Positions 36,616 through 61,081 of a stretch of 64,000 bases of DNA are shown here, piece by piece. Positions within the stretch are counted from its first letter, which is position 1; each line of letters starts with the position of its first letter. Below the pieces are notes generated by a model. The model was not told where the DNA came from, searched no databases, and saw only the letters and a program-made list of their open reading frames with translations. This DNA is from Bryoerythrophyllum caledonicum (Eukaryota > Streptophyta > Bryopsida > Pottiales > Pottiaceae): the NCBI GenBank assembly GCA_963971425.1, contig OZ020515.1:17686291-17750290 (forward strand). The letters are read 5' to 3'. The position numbers and the translations under genes were made by a program.

Positions 36616-36767
36616 CCGGCACTAAAGGGTTAAACGTAAGAAGGTGTCTCTAGTGGCTAGATTATGCTATATGTATGGTGTCGTATTTCAATATGACAAG
36701 GTTCACATATCGAAATGATCTCCAAATGAAAGATGTTGGTTGAAGAAATCTCTAATCCAAAGGTGTA
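36616..36767. repeat. Dispersed repeat B, left part interrupted by the giant transposon
   Basis: This half runs GGTTAAACGTAAGAAGGTG to CCAAAGGTGTA and then stops at the transposon border. The remainder (AAGTCTTGCTAAACTTT...) resumes at 54630. The intact copy at 3083-3281 joins the two halves. Confidence 0.8.
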
Positions 36768-36771
36768 TGCG

Positions 36772-36794
36772 ACATTTAAGTAAATGTGGACTTT
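36772..36794 (+). repeat. Left terminal inverted repeat of the giant transposon
   Basis: ACATTTAAGTAAAT followed by GTGGACTTT. A second TGGACTTT follows at about 36807. It pairs with 54597-54619. Confidence 0.82.
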
Positions 36795-37389
36795 AAGATG
36801 AATTATGGACTTTGGATCAATTCTTGATATTGGAAGCAAGATCATGAGATCATACAGTGTTATCATTGGCATCAGGAATATATCAATAAATATAGGATTG
36901 AGCTTAGAGGTTAGGGGTAACTGCAACGTTCACTTAGGGATGAAGTATAAAAAGGCATCAAACAATGTAGTAGGATCTGGCGATCCAAGATATATAGCTT
37001 ACATAGTGGGATCCTACGGTCTAACAAGACATGTAGGGCAATCAATGTAGTACACATGAAACAAATAAGCATTCAATTAGGCGCAGAGAATGGGGGTAAG
37101 AACCACTGACAACTTTACTCATAGAATATATTGAACAAAAGCAAGTCACTGAAGAACTCAATGTACTAGGGAAGCGGCTACATACTTTGTAATAATCGCT
37201 CAAGATACATAGCGTACATAGTAAGATCCTACAGTCTAACAACACATGTAGGGCAATCAATGTAGTACACATCAAAAAAATAAGCAACCAAATAGGCGTG
37301 GAGAATGGGGGTAATGACTATCAAAAAATTTATTCATAGAAAAAACTGGATGAAAACCAACGCCAACAGAACTCAATGTAGGGAACCGA

Positions 37390-38023
37390 CTACGTACTTC
37401 GAAACACTCCCTCAAAGTGCCATGGTTCAAGTAGTCTACGATTAAACTTTACATCCATCGGGTGCCCTCGCAGATATTCCTTCACCGAGGCGTAAGATCG
37501 CAGCGGGAGGATGAACGGAAGCAACGCTGTTCCAATATTAGGTATAACATTGGATGTGTTGGGTAAGGTCATTTCACCATGCCATGACTTCGGAAAGTAG
37601 CAAGCGAGGTCTCCGTTGAAGACATGACGCATTGGCTGGTCATCAACCATCAACATTTTGTCAGGAAGACAGAACTGCTTCGTCTTCCGGTCCGTTGAGA
37701 GTCTCTGAAGAACCTTGTCACAGAAAGGATACAATTGTGGCCTTGAACACTTGTTTCGTCCATAACAAAAAAGAAGTCTTGACCTTATGTCTTCGGGGAG
37801 GAGGACTTCAAGGACCTTCTTCAGGCGCGCAGGGACCATGGACGACCATATACCAACTTGGAAGGACCTCAGAAGTATACTGAAAAACTCTAGGAGACCA
37901 GGCCGAACAATGATGTTGTTCCGATTGAAGCATCGCGGGGAATAATTATCGTATTGCTCGAAACAAAGCAATCCGTTGACAGACAACACGATAACTTTTG
38001 TCAAGTCGTCGCGTCGCTGTGAT
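37390..38023 (-). CDS. FCP1/NIF-like (HAD phosphatase fold) protein 2 of the giant transposon, catalytically eroded
   Basis: An uninterrupted exon follows a 3' splice site (ATCACAG at about 38024) and encodes ~205 aa. VIVLSVNGLLCF sits where FCP1/SCP phosphatases have LVLDLDETL, so both catalytic aspartates are missing. VRPGLLEFFSILLRSFQVGIWSSM and KMLMVDDQPMRHVFNGD match later landmarks of the NLI-interacting-factor domain. It lies 3' of a related gene (38390-39237) and may be a further exon of it. The start is unknown and the stop is at 37390-37392. It is probably a binding or scaffold protein rather than a phosphatase; that role is inference. Confidence 0.55.
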
Positions 38024-38389
38024 CATAGAGAAAGATAGAAGTTATAAACAACATCAAGGATCGTCGGATCCCACCACACTGCCATCCATACTACAAACAA
38101 ATCATCCATACAAGATCCTTAACTACTCCATCCATGAGGGTCGTAGGATCCTACCACACTGCTATCCGGATCACAAAAATCATACAATATCCTTAACTAC
38201 TACATTCCTCAGGGTCGTAGGATCTTACCACCCTAAGGATAATTCATGGGACATATTGCGATTAATAATATCCAAAATAAGATGATAGCCTCAATACTGA
38301 AGAGTGTCTGATAAAGAAGAGGTACATGCTACAAGTATATATTGAAACATAATATACAAAATATACACATCACCGATACGAGTGAGTAG

Positions 38390-39237
38390 TCATTGAAATG
38401 CCCGGACTTTGGAATTCCATTTTCGAGAACACCCAATTATGATGTTCTGAGCCAACGCAGTGGACCTAAATTCTCCAGGAACCGGACATCCGGGAAGGGG
38501 ATGGTTACGGACATATTCGGCCACAGAGAGATTTGAGGAAAACATATTCTCGAGCCATGGAAGCATAGTGTTCATGAGGAACTTGTCCTTCAGGTCACCT
38601 GTCCACGTTTGAAGATGAATCGCACTAAACTCATCGTTGAGGAGGTTCTTCTCCGGGCTGTCGTCAATGAGCAATGTCAGACTGAGGTCTATGTGGTCAA
38701 CATATTTCCTGACGTTTTTGAGGTCCTTGAGCATGTACTTCTTCTCAACGTTGTTCCCCGCTCTCGGAAAGCTCGACTCGGTAACATCAGATTGTGACAT
38801 AACTATTAGGTCCTCTAGCTGTACAGTAGAACTATCCAAAGCCACCTGTAACATGCTATCGACATTTCTCCTCATGGCGCAACTCCATACCACGGCAGTA
38901 GCCTTATTTGTAAGCACCTTCAGAAAATTTGCACACTCAGGCCTAGCGACAGTTTTACGCCCCTTATCGTACGATCTGTGAATCAGAAATCCATTCAAGT
39001 CCAGCACAACAGTGTACCGAGGTTGCCTTACCTTTGCTGATCTAGGGGCTGATTTATTGCCGGGTTCAATGAGTTTTCCTACAGAAAACCAACGGTGCAA
39101 GAATGAGACACGGAATTATCGGAAAACTGATAATAAGCAGTAGAATTGATTAAAATCATACCTTCTCTAGAGGAACGAGAGCCCTTATGTGTCACCGATA
39201 ATGGAACCTTTTCACGACGTTGAGCAGTCCCCGACAT
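38390..39237 (-). CDS. FCP1/NIF-like (HAD phosphatase fold) protein 1 of the giant transposon
   Basis: Two exons (39237-39162, 39078-38390) join in phase to ~254 aa, beginning MSGTAQRREKVPL. The domain opens with YTVVLDLNGFLIH: the first aspartate of DxDx(T/V) is kept and the second is Asn. RPECANFLKVLTNKATAVVWSC and LSLTLLIDDSPEKNLLN follow in the order expected for NIF-type phosphatases. Part of the 38390 tail (SRKWNSKVRAFQ) is unrelated. The first exon resembles the end of the upstream exon at 39541, so the upstream exon could be spliced to 39078 instead, with matching phase. No internal stop is present, unlike the other genes of the element. Confidence 0.6.
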
Positions 39238-39540
39238 CTCCCGTGCCCAAAAAAAAAAGATCATTAGTAAAGAATACACGACCCATAAGCCATTCAAAAT
39301 GCTTATACATTGCGAGCATTCGAGACAGCAGTGCTCGAGGGTAGTAGGATCCTACCATCCCATTGGAATCGTAGGATCCTACCATCCCAATGAGAACGAA
39401 AGTTCCTACCCACTCCAAAGGGATCGTAAGATCCTACCATGGCCATTGAGATCTCCGATCCTGACATCCACTGAGGATAATAGTGTGAATATAGAACATA
39501 GAAGATACACAAAAAACAACAACATGGTAGAATTTAATAG

Positions 39541-40289
39541 CTACATACCTTCTGCAGAGGGTCCTGCATCCGTATGTTGTGCGGATGGAGGATCCTTTTC
39601 AGCAGCATCAGCCTCAACATCAGGTCTTGGGACGATCCTAAAGGTTGTTGGCTGAATTTCTTGATTGAAATTCAAAGGGTCATCCAAGTACTCCTCAACA
39701 GTAGGTGCATTCGAAACATTCCTAGGAGGGCTGAATGCCTGTAGCAACTGACTAGCCTCCTCAAATATGCCTATGGTAAGCTCCTATCGAACGACGCTTC
39801 ACTTACTCGGCGTGAAACAGTCAGATCAGTGTCCTGCAACCTAACAAGTGTATTCGCGGCAGAGTGTTGCTCACGATCCGTTGAAGTGTCCATGTCCTGG
39901 CTGGAGGAAGGATGAGAGGATGGTTCTAACTCCATTGGTGTAGATCCGGATGACGGGGGATGAAGCACGTCCGATCTTCTCGGCTTTACAGGTGGTACAT
40001 TCCTGACGATCATCCTAGTTCCAGGAGCAAGTACCTCTTCCTCCGCGAGCAACGATGCCTCCTCTTCTCTTCTTGTGCTCTACTGATCTGGAATAGAACT
40101 CACCTCCAGAAGTTCACCTCCTCGACAACTCAGGTCCTCATTGCACTCATCGGGCAAGTCGTTAACTAGAGCCAGAAGGCTGCAATCCCCCTCTTCATAA
40201 ATTGAGCTGGCATTGGCATGCTCGATGTCATGCAGAGGTGAATCGCCGTGGGCGTAGACATGCTCCGCCGTTGCTGAAGTAGATGGCAA
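39541..40289 (-). pseudogene. Low-complexity acidic/Ser-Pro protein exon of the giant transposon
   Basis: The frame opens with MPSTSATAEHVYAHGDSP and runs to a splice-donor-like GTATGT at ~39546. It is rich in S, P, D and E. One in-frame TAG lies at ~40080 and one frameshift at ~39770-39790. The final part (AQHTDAGPSAEG) resembles the end of the first FCP1-like exon (VTHKGSRSSREG), which suggests an exon duplication. No domain is recognised. Confidence 0.4.
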
Positions 40290-40633
40290 ATGATCGTCAT
40301 GAGCAATTTAAAGATGCTGCGGCTATGCAATTAGGTTAGTCAGGTTGTTGTCCCAGTCGTAAACTACTGATGAAACACTAAAGATCAAGATGAATGAAAG
40401 GGGATGAAGGATAAAGTGCGTTGTGCACCAAAGCATCTATTCATACCAACAACGACCCGTATCTGGTAAGAATAAATCTCAACAAGGAAAGGCTAGCAAG
40501 GATAGTAGGATCTTACGATCCTAAAGCACTAATCGATTAGTAACTCATGAGTGCATAAAATGGACCCATCGATACATACATTCAAAGTTGTATATACTAC
40601 AGGCAGAGCAATGTAATTCATACCGGCGGCTCA

Positions 40634-40680
40634 GAAGATGAAGTATGCAGATTCCGATCATGAACATCCGTAGTTCCCTG
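40634..40680 (-). CDS. Small possible exon between the two minus-strand blocks
   Basis: It is bounded by CCAGGCAG on its 5' side and a GGTATGAAT donor on its 3' side, and encodes GTTDVHDRNLHTSSSEPP. It could link the large gene ending near 40837 to the exon starting at 40289. Confidence 0.3.
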
Positions 40681-40830
40681 CCTGGAGTTGGGATATGATG
40701 ATGAATACAACGAAAATGAATACAGAAAATTAACCACAGTACATTGCTGATCAGTTCACATGGTTATTGTTATATACAATTGTCCTAGAAATAGTTTGTC
40801 CGTTGACAGAGATAAAATTTAGCGTGTGTA

Positions 40831-43800
40831 TCATACAATGGTGGCCTCTTGGGCACCGGGTTGTGTAGAAGAGGGAGGACTCAGGATGATCTGCTCCTGG
40901 TTTTCCAACTGCAATCCTCGATGAGTGTTGGACCTGCCCTTGCGCTTGTCGTCCAAAGGCTGATCCTCCTCTTCGTTCTCCTCCTCTTCCAAATCAGTGC
41001 CCTTCTCGGAGGGGGCCTTGTCCGAGTCGCTGGAGCAGTCACTCTCGGAGCTGGATACGGGAATAATGACCTTCTTCTTGTCTCTTGCGATACTCTTTTT
41101 CTTCCTCTCGCTCACAGTCAAGGCCGCCATAGCGGGTACCGCTATTGCCAGCGTCTGAGCACTTTCCCAAATATCGTTCGCTGTCTCATCGGCTCTCGTC
41201 ACTTCATCCCTGGAGAAGACGACTTCGATGACTTGTGCTCCTTTAGTCTGCAAAACAGAATAGTAGGTTGTATTAGATGACATAAAACATATTCATATGA
41301 TGTAACGATTGTGTTGAAGAGAGAACTTCAATGAACTCAGGGATGAGGTAAAGAGATCGTAGGATCCTACGGTCATCTTACCAGGCCAATCCAGGTAATC
41401 GAAGGACCCCCACCGATGTTGACAATAACACTGTTTGGAGCCTCCAATGTGCCAAGCAACTTGCTAACCGCGTCAATATTGAAATTGGCGTATGAATGTT
41501 GAGCCCATTGTTTGGGAGCATCCTCGAAATCTGCTGCAAATATCACTGTATGGAATGGCATCTCATTCCCGAAAGCTGATCGAAAGCAAACTGCCTCAGC
41601 CGAACTGAAGTCGTTCCCATACACAAAGTTGAAGTACAAGGGCAACGTTGGTTCAGGAGATGAAGGACTCACGAAGCCCTCCGTCCCCTGGGTAATATAT
41701 AATGTGGGGGTGTGAAACCAGGGTAGCGTTTGTATTGCGATCGCGCCCCTCTCAGCTACAGCGTTCGCAACCTCCACCATTCCAGCCCGGTCTGTGATAA
41801 ACACACCTGGATAACGGACCCTCCTGAATTGGTTATCATCCTTATGCTCTATGGCCTGCAAAGTTTGCAAAACCTGTTCCATGATTGAAAAATCAGGTTT
41901 CCCTTTCTCTTTGCGATTGACAAAGTAGTACACCATAACCACCGTCGCATTCTTTTTCGTCCATTGCAGCATCTGGTCACTGCCCAAATGTAGAATCTTT
42001 GTTAGGTCTCCAGATTTCCTGTTCATCCAAGCGGATTTTTATTTCGCTAAAAGCGACAATCCGGATGACGTTGGAACGCTCTCAGCTCGATTCTCCTTGA
42101 TGGCCTTCTGGTGATCGAAGAGCATCTTCAGAATAGTGGGAAAGTCATCCTCCTTATTTGAGGGGGCTAAGGCGGATCCTTGCTTCAAGAAGAAGCGCTC
42201 TCCAGCAGGGTCCTTAATAACCTTCTCAAACCACGTTTCGATGGTGGCTTCGGTGACCTTGTACTCCGCTGCAGCGTTCAGATAATCATCCTCAGAATAC
42301 GAGGCTTCCTTCAATGTCTTACACCTGACGGGCTTCTTAAAGAAGTAGTGCATGAACTCATTCTTGATGAGTCGATGCTTCTTCTCAGTCTGACACGCCT
42401 TCTCGAGGCCTTGAAGGACGGGTACCTTCTTCGCCGACTTCACCGAGACTTTCTTTGCCATCACCAACTTGGCCATCTTCTCGATGTCACTATCCCACAT
42501 GAAATATAGTGGCATCAAGTCGTTCTGCTTCAGAGCCCTCGCCTGGTATCGCTTCTGCTTCAAACGCTCCTTCCTCGACCTATCCTCGTTGTCCTCGACG
42601 TCATCAGCACAGTCCTCGTCAACAGCTGAGACAAAGCTCGAAGTTACCCCGAATGCATCGGGAAGAAGTCCAAGTACCCAGCTCTCCTGGATCTGTAACC
42701 AAATCTGGAAAATAGGCTCCGAAACAAACAACAATGGATATTTTGGGATTCCTGTGTTGCTATCTTCAACGATTTTTGAATCGGAGTTGGAAAACAATGC
42801 CGGAAGTTTATCAGACCAGGCCTGCAAGAAAATGGGGAGTCAGAAGTTAAACACAGAAATTTGGAGATGGTAGGATCCTACGATCCTGACGACCATGTGG
42901 TTATTTAAGTTGGGATCGTAAGATCCTACTATCCGTCCATACCTTGTATATGAATCAGTAACTCAAACAGTAACGTGATGGATAATGTTTCAGTGAATTA
43001 CCTTGAACTCATTGGAGTGTGCCAATCCATTCTTGGATGGAGCTGGCCTACCGGCTGAAACCCAGCTCTTACGCGCAAGACCCAGCAGGGTGAGATAGTT
43101 GCCCTCTGATCTAACGCCAACAAGATCTTGGTTGAGGACCGTTGAGTAGTATAACATCAAGTTCCACTCCTTGGGATCGTGCCAGATGATTGTTACGATG
43201 AAGCTCTTGGCATCTCTCTCATCTTCTTCCGAGAGACTACCCTCCTCAATGAGGACTCTATGCGCAGCCACCCAGTGTTGCCCACCTATAACCACATAGT
43301 GTGTGTTTGGGCCGATGTCCTGCAATGTTGGTTGGACGTCGAAAAACTTGTACGCATCGTGAGGCACGTCTTGGAAATCCTCTTTCCGAACTGGATAATT
43401 ACCCTTCACTGGCATCACGTACAGATGCTGCAGTGATGCCTGAAATGGCATCGTCCGCTTCTGGTCAATGAGCTGTAAAACTCGCTTCTTATCCAGTGGT
43501 CGATAAACGACAGTACCGGCAGGAGCTCGGTGAAGGCACTCAATGTCGACTACCAGATCAGTGGGGTCCTGTGGGGAAACCTTCATTGGCTTCTTACAAA
43601 AAATATGGAGTTTGGAGAACTCTCTTTCGTACAGAGTCCTCACAAGCTGAAGCTCTTTTGCTATTTTCCCTGCCACGGTCTTGCTCGTCATTCCCACTAC
43701 TTTGGCTAATGTCAGTTTGTCCACCTTGGGGTCCGACTTCTTCTTCTGTGACTTTTATTTTGGCGGCCCCTCATCTGGAAGAAGAGAGGACAGCCGCTTC

Positions 43801-44361
43801 TTCTTAGGAAGTGTAGGCGGAGCGGATTTCTGTCGGTCTCTATTGTACGAAGCATGATTCGCCTACAGCTCCTTCCAGCCTTGGACAATTCTACGAACGT
43901 TGGGATTAAAGTTTGATATTGTGAATCCCCAGTCCTTAACCGACTCGTTTAGTGCAGGGACCAAACCTACTTTGTCAATGACTAAGCCATACACCCTGGC
44001 ATTGCCCGAACTCGCCACAAACTTGGAGATGACAATTACAAAAATGGAGGCGGTCAGGTGCGCTAACTCTAAAATCTCCATGTTCATCGTTGATAACTTG
44101 TATGAAGGACCTCCAGGAGCTGCGGCATTAGTAATAGCCATCACTGGCGCAATCAGAATGTTCTTTTGCTTCCGGTCAAGTGTCCAGTGAAGACCCCATT
44201 CCACAACCTTGTCGGCCATGAAGAAAGCGGTGGGCTGAGGATCACTAACTAGATTACATTCTACGTTCTTCAGCCCACACGAAACAACATCATACAGGTT
44301 CACAGGACACCAGTCGGGGTTCACGTCTTCGAGTTCGATGATGTTTTCCCTGACCATACCA
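40831..44361 (-). pseudogene. Large protein of the giant transposon with ParB/sulfiredoxin-like and possible methyltransferase-like parts
   Basis: Three exons (44361-43002, 42821-41382, 41247 to about 40837) join in phase to more than 1000 codons. They are interrupted only by in-frame stops at about 43863, 43757 and 42039. The middle of exon 1 has an HTH-like LTLAKVVGMTSKTVAGKIAKEL. It is followed by YRPLDKKRVLQLID and VVIGGQHWVAAHRVL (about 43250-43297), which read like the ParB/Srx fold (compare IxxGxxRxxAA). The end of exon 2 (NSVIVNIGGGPSITWIGL), running into exon 3 (VIEVVFSRDEVTRADETA), resembles motif I and the following acidic strand of beta-class DNA methyltransferases. No DPPY catalytic motif is seen. 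Exon 3 ends in an acidic Ser-rich tail. The ParB call is moderate, the methyltransferase call weak. Confidence 0.5.
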
Positions 44362-44440
44362 CTGCATAAATTCAGTACTCATAGAAGAAACTCAGGTGCC
44401 AACGGTTTCCTTCGAAATCACAAGCAACCATCTAACTGAG

Positions 44441-44920
44441 GATCGTAAGATCCTACCATCCAGAAAGGTATGGATAGCTCACACAGACCTTGAGGGGATC
44501 GTAAGATCTTACGATGGAATTCATAAATAGATAGAAAAGAAGATGTGATACCAAGTGTACATTGTGAAAGGGATCGTAGGATCTTACGATCTTCAATGGG
44601 ACCTTAAATTCAAGCAGACAAGAGGGATTGTGAAAGATCATATGATCCCTCAAGTAGACCGTAAGATCTTATGATCCTGAACGTTATCGTGAGATCTATG
44701 GATCTGAAATGGGATCATAGTAAGATCTTACTATCCTTAATGGGATCGTATGATCTTACGATCCAGAGAGGGATCGTAAGATCTTTTGATCCTGAATGGA
44801 ATCGTCAGATCTTACTATCGGCTTGGAGGATCGTATGATCTTACGATCCTCTTGGGGATCATTAGATCCTACCATCCTCATGACGATGGTAGGATCTTAC
44901 GATCCACATGAGGATCGCAT
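44441..44920. repeat. Cluster A of the GATC-rich 20-bp palindrome
   Basis: About 15 copies in 480 bp lie just upstream of the minus-strand gene block. Near-perfect copies of GATCGTAAGATCTTACGATC are at 44497-44516, 44572-44591, 44744-44763 and 44829-44848. The centre base pair and the G/A next to it vary, while the half-site GATCGTA is best kept. Scattered single copies lie elsewhere in the element (37006, 37219, 38143, 38213, 39341, 39370, 39420, 40498, 41350, 42865, 42913). Confidence 0.9.
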
Positions 44921-45189
44921 GAACTTCAGGTGCACTTTAGCACCAATGTACAACTTATATCAACTTCATTTGAAGATATTGAACAGTAGATCTACATTCT
45001 ATCTATCGTGAATAGTTTGCATACCACACACAGTAACCCTAAATTGCATATCATACTGCAAGGGCTAACATACGATTCAGAAAAATTCGATAGGTGTTAT
45101 GACATTCATGACATACAACAAACCTTCTAAACCTGAGTATGAGTTCCAATGCTAGAATACTATTCACAACATTCAATAGAGCTTGTAAA

Positions 45190-45640
45190 CCAGAACATGG
45201 AAAATTTAGTAGAAAATCATGGAAAATTTAGTAGAAAAGCATTCAGAACTTAGTAGAAAATCATTCAGAACATTGTTCAGATTCAGCGAACTCTACCTGA
45301 ATCCTAAAGTCAAATCATTCTCAGCATTGTACAGATCCAACAAACAATACCTGAATCCTAAAGCTGAAAACATTCACAAGATTGTACAGATCCAGCAAAC
45401 TTGACCTGAAATCTAAGGCTGAAAACATTCAGCACCTACTACACACCTTGTAAACCTAACAGGAAAACCTTAACCTGACAATCATTCATAACAAACTAAA
45501 CACCTTGTAAACCTAATACAAACACCTGCATCTGACAGTCATTCATAACATACTACGCAGCTTCTAAAACTAACATAGAAACCAGAATTTGACAATCGTT
45601 CATAACATACTACAATTCATCTAATCCAGAACACGAGAAA
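45190..45640. repeat. Degenerate tandem repeat (~57-60 bp) upstream of the minus-strand block
   Basis: Units share ACATT.ACAGATCCA.CAAA, ACCTGAATCCTAAAG and CACCTTGTAAACCTAA. The open frames here are repeat-derived. A possible 5' exon of the minus-strand gene, with a donor GTAAGT, lies immediately upstream at about 45676-45735. Confidence 0.6.
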
Positions 45641-46439
45641 GAAGAAATTATTAGCATTGAAAGAGAGAAACTTACGGGTCACTCTAGGCGCTTGCATTGC
45701 CGGATGAGCCTGTCATCCTCGTGAATTGGTTGGCCTACACACCAATTAGAACGTAGCAACAACTGAGGCTCGTGAGTCACAGCAACAACACCTATTCAAT
45801 GTCTAGAAAACATCGACAGTTGAAGAACGCCGAACAACTTCATGTACATTATCGACATCCTCAACTCTACAAAGACCTAAAGACACCGAATTTCTAATTC
45901 ATATGAACTAACCAGAGTAGAGAGGAGGAAAATCCTTACCTCGAAGTATTGTTTCCTTCAAGGTGCCGCACCCTTTCGTAACGACGCGTTTGCCAGTCGC
46001 ACCGATTTGGAGTTGAAACGCACTCACAGTCACACTACTTTTACCGCGCTCATAGCGCTCACACTCGCGCATACACTCACGGTAACAACAATGTATATTT
46101 CTACGCACCGCACTCACAACAAACCACAAAAAAAAACTTTTAAAAACACTAAACCAAAGTGAGCGCGAAAACAAGAAGCTGAAGGAAGAGGGCAGAGGGA
46201 GGGGGAGAGACAACGAGAAGTGCAATTGATGGTCGCACAACTCCTCCACGACGGTTGAGTTGCCATCTACATCAAGCACTAATGATGCTTCAAGTCATCA
46301 TCACTATACGGTGAAGACTAAACTGTCTAATCAAGAATTGATTTTTCATTGAAAATTAAATTAAATAACAAGTTCTTTAGACTTCACTTCGTATGATATT
46401 CTTGCACTACACAAGCTCGAAAATCTATTAACATTGTCT

Positions 46440-47165
46440 TAAGCATGAGGTTAGTTCCCTATACACCAATTTATACTTCTATTCAATCTTTCATTCTTTT
46501 TTATTCTACGTACAATTGACATATTCTTTATTCTATTTTTGATTCCACTTACTTCTATTCAATCTTTCATTCTTTTTTATTCTACGTAGATCTATTCAAT
46601 CTTTCATTCTATATGTTTCTTTTTCTTTTTGATTCTACTTATTTCTATTCAATCTTTCATTAGATAGTCTTATTCCTTATTCTATTTTTGATTCCACTTA
46701 CTTCTATTCAATCTTTCATTCTTTTTTATTCTACGTAGATCTATTCAATCTTTCATTCAATTTGTTTCTTTTTCTTTTTGATTCTACTTATTTCTATTCA
46801 ATCTTTGATTAGATAGTCTTATTCTTTATTCTATTTTTGATTCCACTTACTTCTATTCAATCTTTCATTCTTTTTTATTCTACGTACAATTGACATATTC
46901 TTTATTCTATTTTTGATTCCACTTTACTTCTATTCAATCTTTCATTCTTTTTTATTCTACGTAGATCTATTCAATCTTTCATTCTATTTGTTTCTTTTTC
47001 TTTTTGATTCTACTTATTTCTATTCAATCTTTCATTAAACAGTCTTATTCTTTATTCTATATTTTTATTCCACTTATTTCTATTCAATCTTTCATTCTAT
47101 TTCTTTACTCTAATTGTTTATTCTAGGTATTTCTATTCAATCTTTCATTCTATTTCTTTACTATT
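46440..47165. repeat. Pyrimidine-rich minisatellite
   Basis: About 14 occurrences of TCTATTCAATCTTTCATTC are separated by variable TTTTTATTCTACGTA and TTGATTCCACTTACT spacers. It lies inside the giant transposon, between its two divergent transcription units. Confidence 0.9.
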
Positions 47166-47706
47166 TTGAATTTTTCTAGTTATTTCCCTTTACATGGGTG
47201 GCAAATTAGTTACAAAATCATTTGCAATGGAGATTCTATATACTATTTCAATGATTTCACACTAAAGTGATAGTTTCTTCTTAACAAATTACAATTTCTC
47301 TAGACCGAGTAGTAGTAGTAATAATTTTTTTGAAAACATAGACTAGGAATACAAATGATAAAAGTCCTAGGCCTAACGCGTTGAATTTGAGAGAATTCAT
47401 TTTTGTATCATAATCTCCTACTATTGGTACAAATTTTTACCATTGAGCTCCTAATAGCCTTTAAAGTTTCATCAAAAGTACTTGATGAAACAATACATCG
47501 CACTCAAGGAATTGGCAATACATACATTTACTATGTGTTGAAATTCATTTGTTATTGACGGATAAATACAACTTCATCATTATTAATTCAAATTTCACAT
47601 ACAAGGTGTAGGAATTGATGTATACAGTACTTATAATTCCCTATAATTGTGTTGAGCTTGATCCACGGACACATGACAATTTTATTTTAGATCATTAGTG
47701 CACCTA

Positions 47707-47905
47707 GGTTTAGGGTTGAGAAGTTGCAAAATGGTCATGTTATTTACATGTATGGTGTCATATTTAAGCATAATAAGCTTTAGATATTGAAATGACCCCC
47801 AAATAAAAGTTTTCAGTTGAATCTCCAATCCAAAGGGATATGTCTTGCTATATTCTAGTACATTTATTGTATGTTTAGTGTAAAATACGTGAATGTTTTA
47901 ACCAA
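47707..47905. repeat. Dispersed repeat B, copy nested inside the giant transposon
   Basis: It shares ACATGTATGGTGTC, ATTGAAATGACC.CCAAAT and CCAAAGG..TA.GTCTTGCTA with 3083-3281. Confidence 0.65.
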
Positions 47906-47934
47906 GCTCAACGAATCATTTATAAAAGGGTTTC

Positions 47935-48722
47935 AAGGATTACCCTAGACCCTGAATTTTAGTCCAATATCCTAAACCTAGGTGCCCCAGTACTTGAACC
48001 CTAAAACCTAAACCCCCGACTCTCGACCCTCTGAAATCCTAAACCTAGGACCCTAAAAACCCTGAACCTAGGACCCTAATCCTAAAACTTTGGACCCTAA
48101 ACCTAGAAGCAAAAGCCTTGAACTTTGGACCCTAAACCTAGAAGCAAAAGCCTTGAACCTAGGACCCTAAACCAACCACCATGAACCCCAAACCCTGAGG
48201 CTAAAAACCCTGAACCTAGGACCCTAAATCTAAAACCCTAAACCTAGAACCCTAAACCTGGAAGCTTGAGTCTGTAATCTTGTACCCGAAACCATGAACC
48301 CCAAACCCTGAGGCTAAAAACCCTGAACCTAGGGTCCTAAACCTAAAACCCTAAACCTAGAACCCTAAACTTGGAAGCTTCAATCTGTAATCTTGTACCC
48401 TAAATCATGAACCCCAAACCCTGAGGCTAAAACCCCGAATCTAGGACCCTAAACCTAAAACCCTAAACCTAGAACCCTAAACCTGGAAGCTTGACTCTGT
48501 AATCTTGTACCATAAACCATGAACCTCAAACCCTGAGGCTAAATACCCTCAACCTAGGACCCTAAACCTAAGTCTATATTCTTGTACCCTAAACCATGAA
48601 CCCTAAACCCTGAGGCTAAAAACCCTGAACCTAGGACCGTAAACCTAGAACCCTAAACCTGGAAGCTTGAGTGTGTAATCTTGTACCCTAAACCCTGAAC
48701 CTAGAACCCTGAACTTTTAACC
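47935..48722. repeat. Telomere-motif-rich satellite (CCCTAAACCTAG...)
   Basis: Degenerate ~110-130 bp tandem units contain many CCCTAAAC words, the plant telomere heptamer CCCTAAA being the commonest. They are interspersed with GGAAGCTTGA.TCTGTAATCTTGTACC and CATGAACCCCAAACCCTGAGG. It lies in the centre of the giant transposon. Confidence 0.85.
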
Positions 48723-49732
48723 TAGTCTAATATGTTTATGATTGTAACCATGAGGAGTTGTCGTAAGTTCATGATTACTACTGAAATATGTGTGTTCTTC
48801 ATGATCACTGGACGTTCCCATAGTTCAAGAACAATTTCACTTATATAATTTATCTTATCTCCGTTGTTGTCATTTTCCGTCTTGGAAATTATTACATTCG
48901 AAGTGGCACTTGTACAGCTCTCCACGTCCTTGAAAATGATTGTGATTCTAACCCCGCCAAGGATTCAACGTGTTCTTGATCTACTTCCCGCTTTCTTCAG
49001 ATCAAGAAGAGGTTTCTCTCCTTTTTCGTGTTCAAGCATTACGAGTTCATTTCTAGCAGAGTTAGAGTCTGAGAGCGTTGTATTTGCCCAAGAACTGAGA
49101 GCATTGAGTTTGTTTTGAAGACACTTGGAGTATGAGAGTGTAAGTAATGCGGTTTCGTCTTTGTGTTCAGTCGAGCTTGGGTTTCACCTACTTCGTTTCT
49201 TCTTCGTCATGTTCTGTCGAGCTTAGTTAGCGAGCTTTAAGCTGTCAGTTCATCTTATTCTTCACGACAATGTGAGCGTCACATTCACGTCAATCTGAGC
49301 TTCACATTTGCGTCGACCTCAACTTCACCTTCAGGTCAATCTGAGCTTCACCTTCAAGTTGATCGAGCGCTCCATTGCTGCCCCATTGCCAGTATTGATC
49401 CATCTCTCTCCGGTTCCATCACAATCTACGGTACTGTCTCCTTCCTTCACTTTGTATGCATTGGGGTTTTGAAGTATTTTGGGAAATGCAAGTGCCGCGG
49501 TGGTTTTTCAGAGTTGATGCTGTTGTAAGTGAATCAGAATGATAGATTCTAAACTAATTTTGATCGTGAATGTGCTGCGGTGGTTTATCAAGTATTTGCT
49601 GTTTATAATTAGTCTATATCATAATTTGTAAACTACGTATACTTGGTAGAGACAACTGTTGCCATTGCTTAAATCAACTGGTTCAGTAGCTATTACTGTG
49701 TACAGGAATCGTACTTTCCGTACAGTCATGAT
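48723..49732. other. 5' region of the transposase unit
   Basis: No coding region is recognised. 49250-49390 contains tandem CTTCAC.TTC..GTC-type words. It probably includes the promoter and untranslated leader of the plus-strand gene. Confidence 0.35.
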
Positions 49733-50163
49733 GATCGTACGATATTTGATGATCCAATGATAGTATCGGATGATTGTAGGATATTACTATCCTTTAGGAT
49801 CGGTCAGGAGACATGTTTAGATCGTATGATCCTACAATCTTAGTGGTGGTTTATGAAAACAGGCATTGACCGCAGCTGAATAATCTGGAAGATCGTAGGA
49901 TCTTACTATCACCGAGGATCTAACACGGGTTCTGGAATGATCGTAGGATCTTACAATCTCTTTGGTTCGTGATCGAACGAGGACTGTAGATGCTGCATAT
50001 AATCTCGGATGATCGTAGGATCTTACTATCGCCTAGGATCGTTTAGAAGTTACCGAACAATCGTAGGATCTTACGATCGCTTTAGTGATAGTCTGGGTTG
50101 ATTGCAGTACCTGGAAATAGGGGGTGAGCCAAGAACCATCGTTCATCGTAGGATCTTACGATC
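49733..50163. repeat. Cluster B of the GATC-rich palindrome
   Basis: About 8 copies lie in 430 bp immediately upstream of the transposase start codon (50283), mostly in the form ATCGTAGGATCTTAC(G/T)ATC. The last is at 50144-50163. Further single copies occur at 51684, 53748, 53888, 54121, 54350 and 54513. Confidence 0.9.
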
Positions 50164-50282
50164 TAGTGTCATGACGCTTGATCTGGTAGATTGTTGTCTC
50201 TTACGATTTTTACTTCATCAGGAGAACGAAGAGCAGAGCTGATTGAAGGATTATTGGATCCTCTTTTCTCCGGTTCCCTTCG

Positions 50283-53200
50283 ATGTCTTCAAATTGCGGA
50301 CCAGACGATGAGTTCACTAATTCTGCGAGCGTTAACCCTGGTGTTGAAGCCAACGACGAGCGTAACCGATATGTACCGGACATCAGTGCTTTGCTTTGCT
50401 ACCCTGGACATGGCGTTGTCGGACATGCCATTGTCATTGAAGCCGTTCCTACCGGGTGTTGGCTTGGCGTCGACATTGATCTCACCTTCGCCGAATTGAC
50501 TCTACTTCGACCTGTTGAGATACATGCAACGGCCCGAAGTCTACTCATTCATCCAATGCAGGAAGGCATCTCTATCTTGGCTGAATCGATTGCTAGAACA
50601 ATTCTCTGAGAGACAACAAGCCTTGTCCTGACTTCGGACTTAGGAGAAACTTCTGGGTCGACAAATACTCCTCCTTTTGTACCTCAGGCAGAGTGGGTGG
50701 GGAAGGTTGTGAAGCGCTTTAACAATGATGGGGATCTTATGGCCTCTGGTCGTATCAATTGCGTCTGTCCAGATGAGCCGTTCGAAAGGAGTACTCTGGG
50801 GGAGGGGAACATTGGCGTCACAGTATTTGACGTTTTCATCTGAGATCCTAGTGACATCATGAGCCATCGGAGGTGGCCCATTTCCGACTGTGCATTCGAA
50901 GGAGGACATAGTCTTTGCGATAGGCTCGACCATTTCAATCGTCGTCCTGAAGCACCGGACGCGAATGCGCACCTTGGTGGCCGCCCAATAGCACCATACC
51001 GGTTTGTTCGTCGCAAGAAGCAAACTGAGGAGAGGCTCAACGCGTTTGCTAAGAAGACTATGCCGGAAGAGATTCAAGCAGTGAGTTCGCAATCATGTTG
51101 TTCTGACAAATGTGTGTGCTTAATCAGGCCCTAGGATACCCTTTTCATTCGCCAGAAGTTTTGGCTGAAGGACTTTGACGAACGCCGGGATTATGCAAGG
51201 TCTGTGGGTGGACAATTACGCTATATGGGCAACAATCGGAAACGGAAGTATGTCACTTTACTAGGTCAGGATATCTGTGCTACAGTGAGGTACAAAATCC
51301 ATGGCATACCGTAATCAACGTTTCACGAATATATGGACCAGTACAAGAAGGGCATCGTTTCGTCTACGCATGGGAACAAAGACGTCAAACGACCCCGCCT
51401 TGGAACCGTGCAAGCACTTGGTACGATTACGGCTATCATCAATGAGAGTGCTGATCACATGCCCAATCAGATGAGGTTGACAGTACCAGGCCGGATGGAC
51501 ACTCTAAAGTTTCTGCCATCTGGACATAGTTGGAAGAAGATCGAGGCTGACGCCACAGAGGTATCACTCTACATAGTACACCACATGAACCACTAATCTG
51601 CTTTCACGTGTACTTTAAGCACCTCATGGTTATGATAATGTCCTAAAAGACCCCCTCTATCTTTACTCTTTACATTTAGTTCATGGTAGGATCCTACGAT
51701 CGCCAAGGGTATGCTACAATCTTACAGTCCTCCCATTTTGTGGTTATCCTCAATCTGATTAAAGTTGAATTCTCACTGGGCACTCACCTGACGCACTCAA
51801 TGTTTTGATCATTTGCAGACTAATCTACAATGCGGGTTGCCCGCGGTTTCGCAATCCGCTGTTAGCAGAATGAGGAGGGAGCACTTCAACAATGTTGCGG
51901 TTAAACCCGTTGGGAGCTCATTTGCAAAGTGCACCCTCTGTGACACTCTATGCAGTACATCGACAGATCAGTTAAGGGTTCCGCCGAATATAATTTGTTC
52001 GTGAAGCAGAAACAAACCCACTGTAACCTCCAAGCTTCGTGTAGGCGTGTGTACCATACCTGGAGAGAGGAGTCTAAGCGGCAGAAGGGTGATATTCTCT
52101 GTATTATCCACGATAAAATGGATACAGCCAAGACCGCTATTCCTCGTATGCGAGTTTCTACGAAACTTACATCACCCTTGGGTCAGTTTCCAATGAATGT
52201 CACCGGTATGGTCACGCACGGTCATGGAGATGGTGCCTATGCTCACTACTCCACTGACTTGTGGCCAGGAGATTCTAATTACACTAGCTCCTCCCTTGCG
52301 AGATTGCTTCGGCGTCTCGAGGAACCACCCATTCGTGAATCAGGGAGAATTTTTTCCCATGAGCCGGCCAATTCTTTCTTTGAAGCTATGCTCAGAGGGA
52401 AGTCCAGATGTATTCACCTCTTACCTCCGGTAACGAATAACTCGACTGTACCTGTCCCCCTTCCAAAAAAGTTATATTTGCAGCTTGACAACTCTGCAAA
52501 GGACAATAAGAACCAGTTTCTCATGGCGTTTTTATCGATGTTGACTTATCGAAGGGTGTTCCAAGAAATCCAAGTTGGTTTCTTATTAGTCGGGCACACG
52601 CATGAGGATATTGATGCTTACTTTAGCCACTTATCCAAGACCTTGAAGAGCCAGAATACTTATATTGTCGCGGATTTAATGATGTCCTTCATGCAGTCGC
52701 AAGACTTGAGTTTTATGCCCGAGTTTGTTCAAGAGGTTGCTGACTTCAAATCTTTTGTCCATGGTTATATTCGTGATGGTGCTGACCAACTTGTTGGCTT
52801 AGGAGAGATGCACCTCTTTAAATTCTACGTAGATGAAGAAGGGTGGCCCGTCATGCGATTTAAGGAACTTGCAATTCATGCGCACTGGCTACCCAGAGAC
52901 AAGCTTGCTATCCGTCTTTGGAAGGAGGATGCTGACGAAAAACCGATGCTACCTTCCGGGCTCCCAAATCCTGTACCTTTTAGGCGGTTGTGGAGCAATG
53001 AAGTTCCTTCTTTCACAGGCAATCCAGAGAAGGCAAGAGAGAAGGTTTCCAAAGCTCTTGATAAGAGGTCGTTCATCAAGTCTGGAATTCGAGGTTATAT
53101 AGAATTCTGGGAACGCGGGATGCTTGAAAGTTTGGGCTTTCGAAAGGATTTTCCACCTTATATCGAATACTGGAATGGAGTACTTACAGAACTAGAGTAA

Positions 53201-53640
53201 CCTCTTCCTCCTACTCCTGCAGCCTTGGTAGAAGGCTTCTGGCCAATTCATGATTGGAGAGCCACAGATCCAGCTCCATTGTGCCTCATTACTAGTGGAG
53301 ATGTCACACCTGAAGATGACGAACCTGAACTTTATTGTGGCCCAAGGAAAGAGAGACCAAAGGACGCCTTGAATCCATGGCGAGATGTCGGAGCGGGATC
53401 ATGGATCCTACTCCGTCCTTCACACCCCGAAATATATCCCGTCTGGTTAGGGAGAGCATGTTCAGCAGTCAATTGTGAAAGAGGGCATGCAGACTATGGG
53501 AAGTTCATTATCCAATTTTGGGAGCCAAGAAATCAATTCAAAAACCACAAGATTGTTGGGCAGCAACGTGGGTTCCGGAAAAACGACGTCCACTTCAAGT
53601 TCATGTTAATGCCGTTGATTTGCCTCCGCGTCAGGTAGAA
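50283..53640 (+). pseudogene. DUF7869-type DDE transposase of the giant transposon, inactivated
   Basis: The ATG at 50283 opens a frame that runs to 51560, where a GTATCA donor occurs; the acceptor is at 51817-51818 and the next exon starts at 51819. Catalytic-type segments are in the second exon: IIHDKMDTAKTAIPR (about 52100), LQLDNSAKDNKNQF (about 52480) and VGHTHEDIDAYFS (about 52590). This D, D, E/D series with VGHTHEDID is diagnostic for the DUF7869 family, whose RNase-H-like fold is transposase-related. Upstream parts have the family's Cys-rich stretch (about 51095-51120) and VSSTHGN. Damage: in-frame stops at 50607, 50841, 51132, about 51312 and 53198, and one 1-base frameshift at about 51948. 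The single frame of 416 codons around the core is intact. Confidence 0.8.
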
Positions 53641-54596
53641 CGAACCCTAAGACTCGGACGATTCCAAAGAGGGACCGAATTGCAGCATTGGCTAACCTTG
53701 AAGCTGCAAACGTGGCGGACCCTTGATGGTATTAGGGTTCTCCAGCAATATCGTAGGATCTTGCGACCTTGACCTCATCGAAATCCAGCTATGACTTTCC
53801 ACAACACGAGTTATGATGTTGTAGAAGTTTTCCAGCAAGATAGCACAGTTTTCTCATCCCTTGTCTTTTACTTGAACTCTTCCAGCGAGATAGTAGGATC
53901 CTACGATCCTGCTGCTCCTTGCTGTCTATGATAAATGTTTACATCTATTTTAATTATAATGCATATAATTCGGCGTTGTCATTAATTGTCGACAATGTAT
54001 GAGCTCTCTTCAGATACTTTTGATCCTAGCGTTAACTGCTAGTATTGTACGTTATTTTCCTGCCCTTTGATGCAATTTATACAGTACTATTCTCTGGTAA
54101 TTATCTTAAAACTCTTCCAACGAGATAGCAGGATCCTACGGTCCTGCTTCTTCTAGCTGCCTATGTATGATGCACACATGTTTGATAACTTTTATACATC
54201 AACCTGGGCGATGTCATAATTTCTTTATAATGTATTATCCCTCCTCATATACTTCTGTTTCTACTAGAACCGCTTACATGCTATGTTTGTTTCTCACTGT
54301 AGATGCAATAAATACATTATTCTTCTCACTTCTACTACTACTAATAAATGGTGATGGTAGGATCTTCCTATCCTGTGATGCAAGGTCACTTCTACTATGA
54401 TTCTCCTATCCTTGCAAGGTCACTTGCTACATCACACATTCCTACAATTTATCAATTGTTTCTCTTGTGAAGCTTCTAACTTTCAAAATTTATTGACCAT
54501 CTTTGTTAGATCATAGGATCTTACAAAGCACCTCTATATCATATTTTGTTAGATTTTCCTTGAATAAATCTGGACTTTGACCAATCTAGACTTTCA

Positions 54597-54619
54597 AAAG
54601 TCCAGATTTACTTAAATGT
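54597..54619 (-). repeat. Right terminal inverted repeat of the giant transposon
   Basis: Read on the minus strand it is ACATTTAAGTAAAT followed by CTGGACTTT. A further AAAGTCCAGATTTA-like copy lies inside (about 54567-54580, opposite orientation). Confidence 0.82.
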
Positions 54620-54693
54620 GGCATGTGTAAGTCTTGCTAAACTTTGATACATGTTTTGTATTCTACATAGTAAAGTACGTGCATGTATATACG

Positions 54694-58567: not shown

Positions 58568-61081
58568 GTGACCTCAAAACAATTGGCAACCTCATCTCTA
58601 GAGGGTGATCTCACCCCCAAACCACGAGGTAGGAAGAAGAAGGCAGTGGAAACCAACCCCATCCCACCTCAACAACAACAACCAAAGTCCCCAATCCATC
58701 TCTCAAACGACCAAGAAGACGCCCCTCTCACATTCTCTAGAACGAGCCAAAGGCATAGGATTACTACTTCTCTCCCCCTATCTCCTGACGACACAAATCA
58801 ACCCTCCCCCATCGAACCTTGGAACACTATGGAACAACTCCAGAAGGAGCCCAGTAGTACCACCGAAGCCATGGACATAGAAAATGGAGAAATCATCTCC
58901 AAGATGATCTGCAAGGATAAAACCTCTATCCTCGACTCCCTAGAAGTACAACACCCTGTAAAAAAACAAAGAGGTAGCACCCCAAGCCCAAACCCTAGTA
59001 GTAGCACCTCAGACAAATCCACATTCCATTTCTGGTTGGGCTTCCCCAATATGGAGAAGCTTGCGAAGGACGCAAACCTCGACCCACTATTTAGTGGTAA
59101 GAACGTTTCTGACATGATGATCAGAGGAGTACCCAAGTCTGAGGCAGAGGAAGCCATGAGTGCCACAATATCATACCCAAGGATCCCACAAAAGCTATAT
59201 CCTAAGGTTAGGGAAGATGGTGTTGAGGGGCAACATTATAACCTCACACAACTCCCATTTGATATTGCCACTAGTCCTGATACTGGCCTGTCATATGATT
59301 TTCATATAGCCATCCTGTTCAAACAACCTAAGACCCCTCTATTCCACGATGATGTCAAAAGGCTTGCTAAGGAGAGACTCATTAAGATGGACATTCCCCT
59401 TGGTACTAACCTTTTGGATCCCCTTGCCATCCACTGCAAAGGAGTGAAAAAGGAAGGACAAAAACATGTCTTTTCAGGACTAATCAAGATGCACCTCCTC
59501 AACCCAACAACAGATGCCATCTCTCTACTCAAGGGCACACGTTACTTCATGTTACAACTGGACCCCATGGGACCGTTGTCCTTGGGAAAAGTTTGCAAGA
59601 CATGGCACGTCAAGGTCTATCTGTCAACATCAAGAGCGACAACCTATGTGGTATTCCTGCACATACCTTGTTTCATAATGTGGTTCTTAATGGCTTCACT
59701 CGTAACCTTGAGTTTGAAATCACTGATGTCCGGAAACAGGAGAAGGAGCCCTTCGCATGGATTGTGGCACCCACTTCTACCCAAGCGAAGAAACTAGCGA
59801 CGCACTAGATTACGACCTTCCATGATATCATCCTCGCGAAGCCCAGCAACTCTGGAACCTCTACAATCAATGACAGGGCCAAGAGGGATGCACTTACACT
59901 CACATTATCTCAGCTACCAATCCTGCTGAGCGTGGTTGAAACCACGGAGGCCATCACGAAAGCTTTGGAGGCCAAGAGCATTATCGGGTGAAAGTCCACT
60001 AAGGTGGTATATTTATAGTGTCACAAATGGTTTTGGAAAGAGTCACGAACCTTCTTTTGCTGCATAGTGCAAATGTGGGATCGATCTTGGAATTCTATTG
60101 ATGGAATGTGATAATTGCCTTGATTTAAAGTCTAGGAACCTCAAAAATGTTGAGTTTTGATTTATGATTTGGCCAATATAGGTATATCTTTCATCAATAT
60201 ATACCTGTCATAAGTATGTGACATTTGCCAAATATACTTATTTTGAGAGTTCTAGGAAGTTAAACACTCCAAAAGTTTTGGGACACATTCATGCCATAAT
60301 GTGTTCATATATTATAATTGAAAATTCTAGATCGGAAACTTATTTTCACTTTTATTGCTAAAAAACGAGATATTTCTTCAAGGCTCCTGAAATAGGACTC
60401 AATGTTGATTTTTTCTTTGATTTTTTATCCAATCACATACATCATGCATAGATCCATCTTGAAACATAATTTTTTCTGAAGAAAAACCTTTTTTTTCCAT
60501 TAAATTGGGCAAAATTAAGTTTTTTTGGCCAAAAGTGAGTAACCCTAGCTGACTTCTACCCTATCAACATTTGGTTCCACGGGCAGATTAGTGGCAAACA
60601 CAATGGCTCTGCCAATGTGCAAGTCGCTAATCCTATTGTCTATTGACAATACCTTAACCAAACCTTTAATATTGGTTGTCACCAAGTTGAGATTCGACCC
60701 CACCGCCGTAGTCTTGATGGCATTGACCCCCCCTCCACCACCTTGGTAGAGAAATGGGGATTCAATGACATAAACACCGCCTTGGTGAACACGATAGCCG
60801 CCATCAACCCCACCACCGTTCCCAACACCAACATACGCGAAGAGATGGCCGCTATTGTGGCGGATGGCCACGAAAAACTCCGCTCGGAGTTATCCACTCT
60901 CAAGAAAGACATCATTCGAGAGACTAGAGAATACACAGACGCCCGCAACGCCGAGGTATACTCTAAACTTGATGATGTTGAGAAACTAATCAGCGCCGCT
61001 TTGTCTGTGATGAAGGGTATCAAATCCAACCGAGAGAAGTCATCCCTCCCCTCCTTGGACGACCCGTCAAACGTGGATTGA
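58568..61081 (+). pseudogene. LINE ORF1-like protein, interrupted
   Basis: A frame starting MTSKQLATSSLEG has a basic, Pro/Ser-rich N-terminus. From ~59030 it has globular sequence (STFHFWLGFPNMEKLAKDANLD). The frame shifts by one base near 59590 and continues to about 59990 with a stop at ~59806. A ~550-bp foreign segment (about 59993-60540) follows. The frame resumes (VEKWGFNDINTALVN) and ends in a probable coiled coil of charged heptads before the stop at 61079. It precedes the 2A/endonuclease ORF, which suggests the ORF1 role. Confidence 0.5.
59993..60540. other. AT-rich insertion splitting the LINE ORF1
   Basis: AT-rich, non-coding DNA interrupts two parts of one protein-like frame. I could not identify inverted ends or a target duplication, so its class is unknown. 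Confidence 0.4.

Follow-up and report, generated by a model that had tools for sequence, protein, structure and literature searches.

Dispersed 20-bp palindromes and a fast-diverging gene in a large DUF7869 transposon family of Bryoerythrophyllum caledonicum: a possible element-encoded self-recognition system

The 64,000-nucleotide stretch of the Bryoerythrophyllum caledonicum genome that we analysed (hereafter the window; C2:17686291-17750290 of a 437-Mb genome) contains, at positions 36767-54624, a DNA transposon of 17,858 bp. The plus strand of the element carries a predicted transposase gene with a DUF7869 domain, while its minus strand carries two FCP1/NIF-like domains (N1 and N2) and a gene for an unclassified protein, referred to below as gene A. 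We regard it as practically certain that this interval is one decayed copy of an abundant, multi-gene family of large DNA transposons of the cut-and-paste type. The ends and genes of the element, in window positions, are as follows.

36763..36766: target site duplication, left copy, GTGT (end comparison across copies)
36767..36794, plus strand: left terminal inverted repeat, 28 bp, starting with ATGC (inverted-repeat match)
37390..38022, minus strand: second FCP1/NIF-like domain, N2 (PF03031, E 6.5e-08, 32.9 bits)
38390..39115, minus strand: first FCP1/NIF-like domain, N1 (PF03031, E 2.4e-16, 60.2 bits; motif DLNG)
40831..41247, minus strand: gene A exon 3 (inferred splice sites)
41382..42821, minus strand: gene A exon 2 (inferred splice sites; one in-frame stop in the window copy)
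43002..44357, minus strand: gene A exon 1 (inferred splice sites; two in-frame stops in the window copy)
50283..53740, plus strand: DUF7869 transposase gene (inferred exons about 50283-51085, 51138-51559 and 51818-53740)
54597..54624, minus strand: right terminal inverted repeat, 28 bp, finishing with GCAT (inverted-repeat match)
54625..54628: target site duplication, right copy, GTGT (end comparison across copies)

The inverted ends are complementary to each other at 26 of 28 positions (ATGCGACATTTAAGTAAATGTGGACTTT versus the complement of ATGCCACATTTAAGTAAATCTGGACTTT). A first-pass annotation of this DNA, made from the letters of the sequence, had described matching inverted ends of 23 bp with GTGTA on both sides; the match of the ends was seen correctly, but the repeats are 28 bp long and their true start lies one base earlier. 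The left 133 bp of the element gave 40 scored matches in the genome, the window included, at 92-100% identity (94 first-look candidates). Twenty other copies were chosen in which matches to the left end and to the transposase lay close together on the same strand; both ends could be recovered in 18 of them, while the right end of the remaining two was not recognisable. An exact direct duplication of 4 bp lies immediately outside ATGC...GCAT in 17 of the 18 two-ended copies, and the duplicated four-mers vary among copies (e.g., TCAT, AAGT, CTCT, TTAT, ATAT, GAAA). The copy at C1:14.017 has no matching duplication and was counted as a miss. The genome search and copy comparison that the annotation had called for thus fix both the borders and the duplication, and a 5-bp duplication GTGTA had to be rejected: GTGTA is seen on both sides because the left repeat starts with an A and an A happens to follow the right GTGT as well. 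Read by eye, the terminal repeat (36767-36790) holds an internal near-palindrome, ACATTTAAGTAAATGT, and the right end (54567-54620) could form a second hairpin with AAATCTGGACTTT.

Ten copies were read from end to end. They are 16.2-19.5 kb long and, internal insertions and deletions aside, contain the same parts in the same order, although the copy at C1:16.37 misses much of gene A exon 1; together with the shared ends and duplication, this collinearity bears out the earlier description of a large, cargo-bearing DNA transposon. In aligned segments, identity is 96-99% among the ten copies and about 90% between them and the window copy, which therefore represents another, older branch. The synonymous divergence (dS) between the window copy and these young copies is uneven along the element, at about 0.08 in N1, 0.11 in N2, 0.18 in transposase exons 1-2 and 0.26 in gene A (0.13 for transposase exon 3, in one comparison with a young copy), a mosaic that suggests exchange between lineages. 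Contig C1 (65 Mb, 15% of the genome) carries 56 of the 100 transposase matches listed, its share being 41 of the 64 lower-scoring and 15 of the 36 best-scoring ones; it may be a low-recombination or sex chromosome.

The private mutations of the young copies are in 328 of 493 cases C-to-T or G-to-A. C-to-T changes occur at rates of 0.0148 in CG, 0.0182 in CHG and 0.0049 in CHH contexts, i.e., 3-4 times more frequently at CG and CHG than at CHH sites. This bias indicates that the host probably methylates these copies, and thus that there would be something for the element to counter. The stops in broken transposase copies seem, by eye, to be mostly TAG, which fits the high CHG rate.

The transposase matches Pfam DUF7869, a domain of unknown function, with an E of 2.6e-43. 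The frame of its last exon is open over 729 codons and free of stops in several copies, while the window gene is disrupted by several stops and a change of frame. The earlier claim of a DDE transposase on one strand holds as regards the plus-strand gene; its DDE character is a by-eye reading of a D...D...HTHED pattern. This pattern, taken with the linkage described below, leads us to infer that the DUF7869 protein is the transposase that acts on the 28-bp ends. The several stops in otherwise open frames might alternatively belong to a recoded or RNA-edited element in which TAA, TAG or TGA are read as sense, an explanation to which we assign a negligible probability. The corresponding positions in other copies are occupied by various sense codons and not by those of a single amino acid, and open copies exist (all tested exons of the one at C2:28556465 are open). 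The stops of the window copy are therefore a sign of decay and not of a new code, and we rejected both an alternative code and RNA editing.

The block of other genes that had been noted on the opposite strand is present at 37.4-44.4 kb. Both N1 and N2 exceed the curated cut-off of PF03031 (60.2 and 32.9 versus 21.8 bits). The DxD pair, which we take to be the catalytic motif of FCP1/NIF phosphatases, is found in neither: N1 reads DLN and N2 reads SVN, with serine in the position of the first aspartate. Phosphatase activity of these domains is thus doubtful. Further exons may lie at about 39.55-40.33 kb. Gene A encodes, in three exons with consistent splice sites, a protein of about 1,070 aa.

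The minus-strand genes and the transposase are repeatedly found together in a fixed geometry. In the genome-wide searches the best-scored matches were listed (150 of 1328 first-look candidates for gene A, 150 of 151 matches out of 2220 for NIF and 100 of 3903 for the transposase), and 148 of the 150 listed gene A places were used, two C1:25770xxx fragments having been dropped, so that the following figures are lower bounds. At least 96 of the 148 have a same-strand NIF match 2-20 kb downstream (wrong geometries: 2, 4 and 1), and at least 50 have an opposite-strand transposase match 4-30 kb upstream (wrong geometries: 0, 1 and 2). Among the listed gene A matches of at least 75% identity (46), at least 38 are linked to NIF, at least 25 to the transposase and at least 23 to both; the respective minima for those of 40-60% identity (98) are 58, 25 and 18, while none of the four listed between 60 and 75% is linked to either. 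The same gene set in the same geometry is therefore found also in diverged subfamilies, in whose members gene A is 46-58% identical to that of the window. Genes in fixed positions without the ends, or ends unpaired around the gene set, were not encountered in the copies examined, and the minus-strand genes, whose association with the transposase the annotation had proposed to test, do recur with it.

Between the window copy and five young copies, the ratio of nonsynonymous to synonymous substitution rates (dN/dS) is 0.16-0.24 for gene A, 0.19-0.27 for transposase exons 1-2, 0.34-0.55 for N1 and 0.13-0.26 for N2, and it is 0.16 for transposase exon 3 (one comparison of the window with a young copy). 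These low values indicate that selection has maintained the genes in the lineages that connect the two branches. Given the recurrent linkage and the purifying selection, the minus-strand genes are working parts of the element and not chance cargo, and we are confident that they are standing parts of this transposon.

A repeat search revealed in the element about 40 copies of a 20-bp palindrome, GATCGTARGATCYTACGATC. With the pattern ATCGTARGATCYTACGAT at up to 4 mismatches, all 40 matches of the window lie inside the element and none outside; as the pattern was derived from the element itself, the informative part of this result is the zero outside. The Markov expectation inside the element is 0.55 matches (20 simulations, maximum 2). 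The palindromes are distributed as follows.

36967..37235: 3 palindromes, left end region
38060..40519: 7 palindromes, NIF block (noncoding sequence)
41356..42932: 3 palindromes, both introns of gene A (41356, 42867, 42915)
44442..44903: 12 palindromes, arrayed immediately upstream of gene A, many at a spacing of 28-29 bp
49773..50207: 8 palindromes, arrayed upstream of the transposase gene, with a 48-bp spacing in three pairs
51683: 1 palindrome in a transposase intron
53750..54527: 5 palindromes, right end region

One further palindrome lies in the middle of the element, and the introns hold four in total. Exons account for 47% of the element and hold none of the 40. Each of the ten young copies contains 39-41 palindromes at up to 4 mismatches, and the form AAGATCTT occurs genome-wide at 370 sites at up to 1 mismatch, compared with one site for the reversed pattern. 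Sites at up to 3 mismatches were used for a conservation test, in which the identity between the window and three young copies was 0.935-0.940 in the palindromes and 0.846-0.855 in noncoding flanks of up to 40 bp; the palindromes thus exceed their flanks by 8-9 points, a difference reached by none of 2000 position shifts in each comparison.

Transposases commonly read repeated subterminal motifs, and the palindromes could accordingly be binding sites of the transposase, i.e., enlarged subterminal repeats whose changes of word track the transposase, with gene A serving another role. In favour of this, eight of the 40 palindromes are found no more than 0.9 kb from an end, and between families the identity of the transposase falls to 55-62% in its N-terminal part (three relatives). 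The other 32, however, occupy the interior, where 20 cluster in the 5' regions of the two divergent genes and 4 are intronic, and the catalytic part of the transposase is kept at 70-79% identity in diverged matches while the palindrome changes. We consider this explanation rather unlikely.

The change of the palindrome could be followed in seven relatives (L069-L075), which were selected, for their position and low number of stops, among the roughly 100 diverged matches listed for gene A and fetched with 8-10 kb in four cases and 2.2 kb in three; the sample is small. An unbiased search for 18-mer palindromes found a family of 5-25 members in six of the seven, and these families, the window's included, are of four sequence types. 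The largest family is ACCGGAGGATCCTCCGGT in L069 (11 members), ATCGGGAGCGCACCCGAT in L070 (25), ATCGGGnGCGCTCCCGAT in L073 (11), ATAGGAATATATTCCGAT in L074 (5) and ATCGTAGGATCCTACGAT in L071 and L075 (16 and 8, respectively). The word hence differs from that of the window in L069, L070, L073 and L074 and is nearly the same in the other three relatives. In two control stretches of host DNA (18.0 and 18.7 kb) the largest family had one member, and the Markov maximum was 2. At up to 3 mismatches the window word has 17 sites in L071, 7 in L072, 1 in L069 and 0 in L070, and the window element in turn holds one site of the L069 word and none of the L070 word.

Exon 1 of gene A divides the same elements into five groups (window with L072; L069; L074; L071 with L075; L070 with L073) that are 29-52% identical to each other, and the close pairs L071/L075 and L070/L073 each share a word within the pair. 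Genome-wide, a listed gene A is found no farther than 15 kb from 46 of 50 listed sites of the window's own type, and in all 46 cases it is 83-100% identical to that of the window. Of the ACCGGAGGATCCTCCGGT sites listed, 31 of 46 have a listed gene A in their vicinity, in all cases 46-55% identical. The L069-type word occurs at 118 genome sites at up to 1 mismatch (control: 0); the L070-type word, CGGGAGCGCTCCCG, has 17 exact sites compared with 2 for the control, and 3 of the 17 have a listed gene A at a distance of up to 15 kb, 47% identical in each case, the other 14 being unassigned. As a correlation in a small sample, the palindrome type appears to follow the gene A clade. Among the matches listed, and for one exon region each, gene A is 46-58% identical in the diverged matches as compared with 70-79% for the transposase.

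The palindromes might also be bound by a host protein, or be transcriptional or RNA-structure features that spread in tandem and have no partner encoded by the element. The regular spacing in the arrays (28, 48 or 66 bp) is what tandem growth predicts. Yet the word changes with the transposon lineage within one genome and follows the gene A clade in our sample, a pattern that a single host factor would not predict. We consider this explanation quite improbable.

Where a conserved, dispersed word is swapped in sister families, a reader that changes along with the word is to be expected, and the word is in our opinion likely to be recognised by a protein that the element encodes. The best candidate for the reader is gene A, because it accompanies the element, has been maintained by selection and is less similar in its diverged matches than the transposase region searched; we incline, narrowly, towards it. 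We therefore propose, as a reading that we favour with some reserve, that the element encodes a sequence-specific self-recognition system, similar in its anti-silencing role to VANC but belonging to an unrelated transposon. The palindromes in 5' regions, introns and flanks would mark the whole element as "self", and an element-encoded protein, most likely that of gene A, would bind the palindromes of its own family. In this way the element would remain expressed or mobilisable despite silencing by the host, which is what VANC achieves for VANDAL elements. A split of gene A lineages would often bring a change of palindrome, so that families with different words would address their own copies alone. 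Anti-silencing as the purpose of the system is suggested by analogy and can be put forward only tentatively. We are slightly more guarded still about the broadest form of the proposal, in which related giant transposons of a single genome would use at least four palindromic words, matched to fast-diverging DNA-binding proteins of non-VANC type, as an independently evolved anti-silencing code.

The first-pass annotation had supposed that the proteins of the element bind or modify DNA; the domain searches and profile comparisons of gene A do not bear this out, and the DNA-binding role that we propose is suggested by the palindromes, a feature which that annotation did not mention. Exon 1 of gene A contains, by eye, a conserved GGQH...AAH region and a helix-turn-helix-like stretch. 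The former and a stretch of NIGGG type resemble what we take to be ParB/sulfiredoxin and methyltransferase motifs, and gene A could then encode a fusion of a ParB-like protein with a DNA methyltransferase, by which the element would mark its own DNA, with the palindromes as nucleation or methylation sites. The density of GATC is in keeping with this (7.8 per kb inside the element versus 3.1 outside, the palindromes themselves contributing), as are the strand arrangement and the size of the protein, which are like those described for the Ectocarpus element Sola1-1_Ec32 (about 1,070 vs. 1,104 aa; PMC12477816). Searches of Pfam, PHROG and PDB, however, gave no match of gene A better than E 0.05, and neither a ParB nor a methyltransferase match was found in Pfam. 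The hhalign comparison with a ParB-like set (E. coli YbdM) returned a probability of 0.7% with a score of 20.0, one of 20 column-shuffled controls scoring 20.6, and that with a DNA adenine methyltransferase set (YhdJ), run without shuffled controls, returned 0.1%; as the profiles are shallow (effective number of sequences, Neff, 1.3 and 2.1, the former being the 1.26 of the methyltransferase comparison), these values are no disproof. The profile comparisons thus did not support our first impression, formed from the motifs and the Ectocarpus parallel, and we hold a ParB-methyltransferase nature of gene A to be improbable.

Several observations weigh against the self-recognition reading, in which binding, reader and effect are all deduced from sequence. 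The searches and profile comparisons described above revealed no relative of gene A among DNA-binding families, and the VANC domains DUF1985 and DUF287 were not found in it by Pfam at E up to 10. The largest palindrome family of L072 has two members, next to the 7 degenerate sites of the window word mentioned above. The gene A clades of the window and of L071/L075 are about 45% identical and yet have almost the same palindrome, and a split of gene A is therefore not always accompanied by a new word. Common descent could account for the 20-bp frame that all four words have. No listed gene A lies within 15 kb of 4 of the 50 own-type sites and 15 of the 46 ACCGGAGGATCCTCCGGT sites, and 6 of the 31 ACCGGAGGATCCTCCGGT sites near a gene A are nearest to one of 46% identity that may belong to a neighbouring element. 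Gene A is not alone in diverging: the NIF proteins are mostly 47-57% identical in the diverged group and are possible binders, as is the transposase with its variable N-terminal part. The palindromes are clearly better conserved than their flanks in the interior and slightly so in the end regions, one copy showing the reverse at the left end, and choosing the sites by how well they match in the window copy may have worked in their favour. Finally, dN/dS is higher among seven young copies (gene A 0.37, N1 0.19, N2 0.49, transposase exons 1-2 0.61), as would be expected if many copies are dead.

Outside the element, the window holds pieces of a fructose-1,6-bisphosphatase gene, whose best PDB matches (1d9q, 5iz1, 1dbz and 1spi) are presumably plant enzymes, and a protein kinase gene; these exons point to a plant host. 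Plus-strand, retroelement-like frames at 60982-63486 include a GDIETNPGP stretch, which we take to be a 2A-like motif, before an endonuclease/exonuclease/phosphatase match (E 0.00032), and a match to the zinc-binding reverse transcriptase family PF13966 at 27121-27852 (E 5.4e-06, slightly below the cut-off) appears to be a retroelement remnant. In the middle of the element, at 47945-48750, there are degenerate CCCTAAA-like repeats, presumably telomere-like repeats of the plant type. Rfam gave no matches in the window at gathering thresholds.

Single-sequence queries with the transposase and gene A found no relatives in viral contigs. A text search of the open-licence literature for DUF7869 gave no match; matches to 12-base pieces of the palindromes in the same literature were all judged unrelated from their titles and the beginnings of their abstracts. 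Nor did the available portions of that literature contain a description of anti-silencing together with Sola1, palindromes or land plants, or of such a system in a DUF7869 element. The DUF7869 family is now tied to a defined transposon with its ends, target duplication and partner genes. To our knowledge, sequence-specific anti-silencing encoded by a transposon is known in detail from a single group, VANDAL with its VANC proteins. If our reading is true, the element would represent a second such system, with an unrelated transposase and 20-bp palindromes, and address codes would evolve repeatedly. Its code would be decodable by comparing protein and word across many copies in one genome, and its natural pairs of protein and word would be material for learning DNA recognition and could yield tools for steering chromatin at chosen sites.

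As regards classification, inverted termini with a duplication of fixed length, found in 17 of 18 two-ended copies, place the element among cut-and-paste transposons. It differs from CACTA/EnSpm elements, which are described as having CAC...GTG termini and a 3-bp duplication (PMC12730594), in its ATGC...GCAT termini and 4-bp duplication. Like KDZ elements it is large and has accessory genes, but the duplications reported for these are of 8 bp (Zisupton and Dileera) or 7 bp (Kyakuja; PMC12730594), compared with 4 bp in 17 of 18 copies here, and the transposase here is of Pfam DUF7869. Target duplications of 4 bp are reported for Sola2 (PMC3627910), and a Physcomitrella Sola1 places the Sola superfamily in land plants (PMC9033089); the likeness to this superfamily noted here is in the length of the duplication. 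The 21.5-kb Sola1-1_Ec32 is reported to encode a ParB-methyltransferase protein of 1104 aa opposite its transposase, and the transposase genes of the giant families described in the same paper are said to be often pseudogenes (PMC12477816). By its description, that element resembles ours in its large size and in that the strand not used by the transposase carries an extra gene, with a product of about 1,100 aa; the ParB and methyltransferase domains reported for it were not detected here, and dispersed palindromes are not among its features in the available text of that report.

The closest parallel is that with the VANDAL elements of Arabidopsis, a Mutator-like group (PMC13317346), and their anti-silencing VANC proteins (PMC5735166, PMC10398659). 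VANC proteins contain the domains DUF1985/DUF287 and bind noncoding motifs of 8-9 bases, which are often in tandem and differ between related elements, the transposase being more conserved (PMC5735166). The element described here differs from them in its DUF7869 transposase, its 4-bp duplication, its 20-bp palindrome and a gene A without a VANC domain, and the anti-silencing that has been demonstrated for VANC is here a proposal. In both cases, a transposon encodes an extra protein that diverges faster than the transposase, and short motifs, frequently arrayed in tandem, are found in upstream regions as well as introns. As in VANDAL, noncoding motifs proper to a family differ between related families (as judged from our seven relatives, with two distant clades sharing a word), and the opponent in both would be the DNA methylation of the host.

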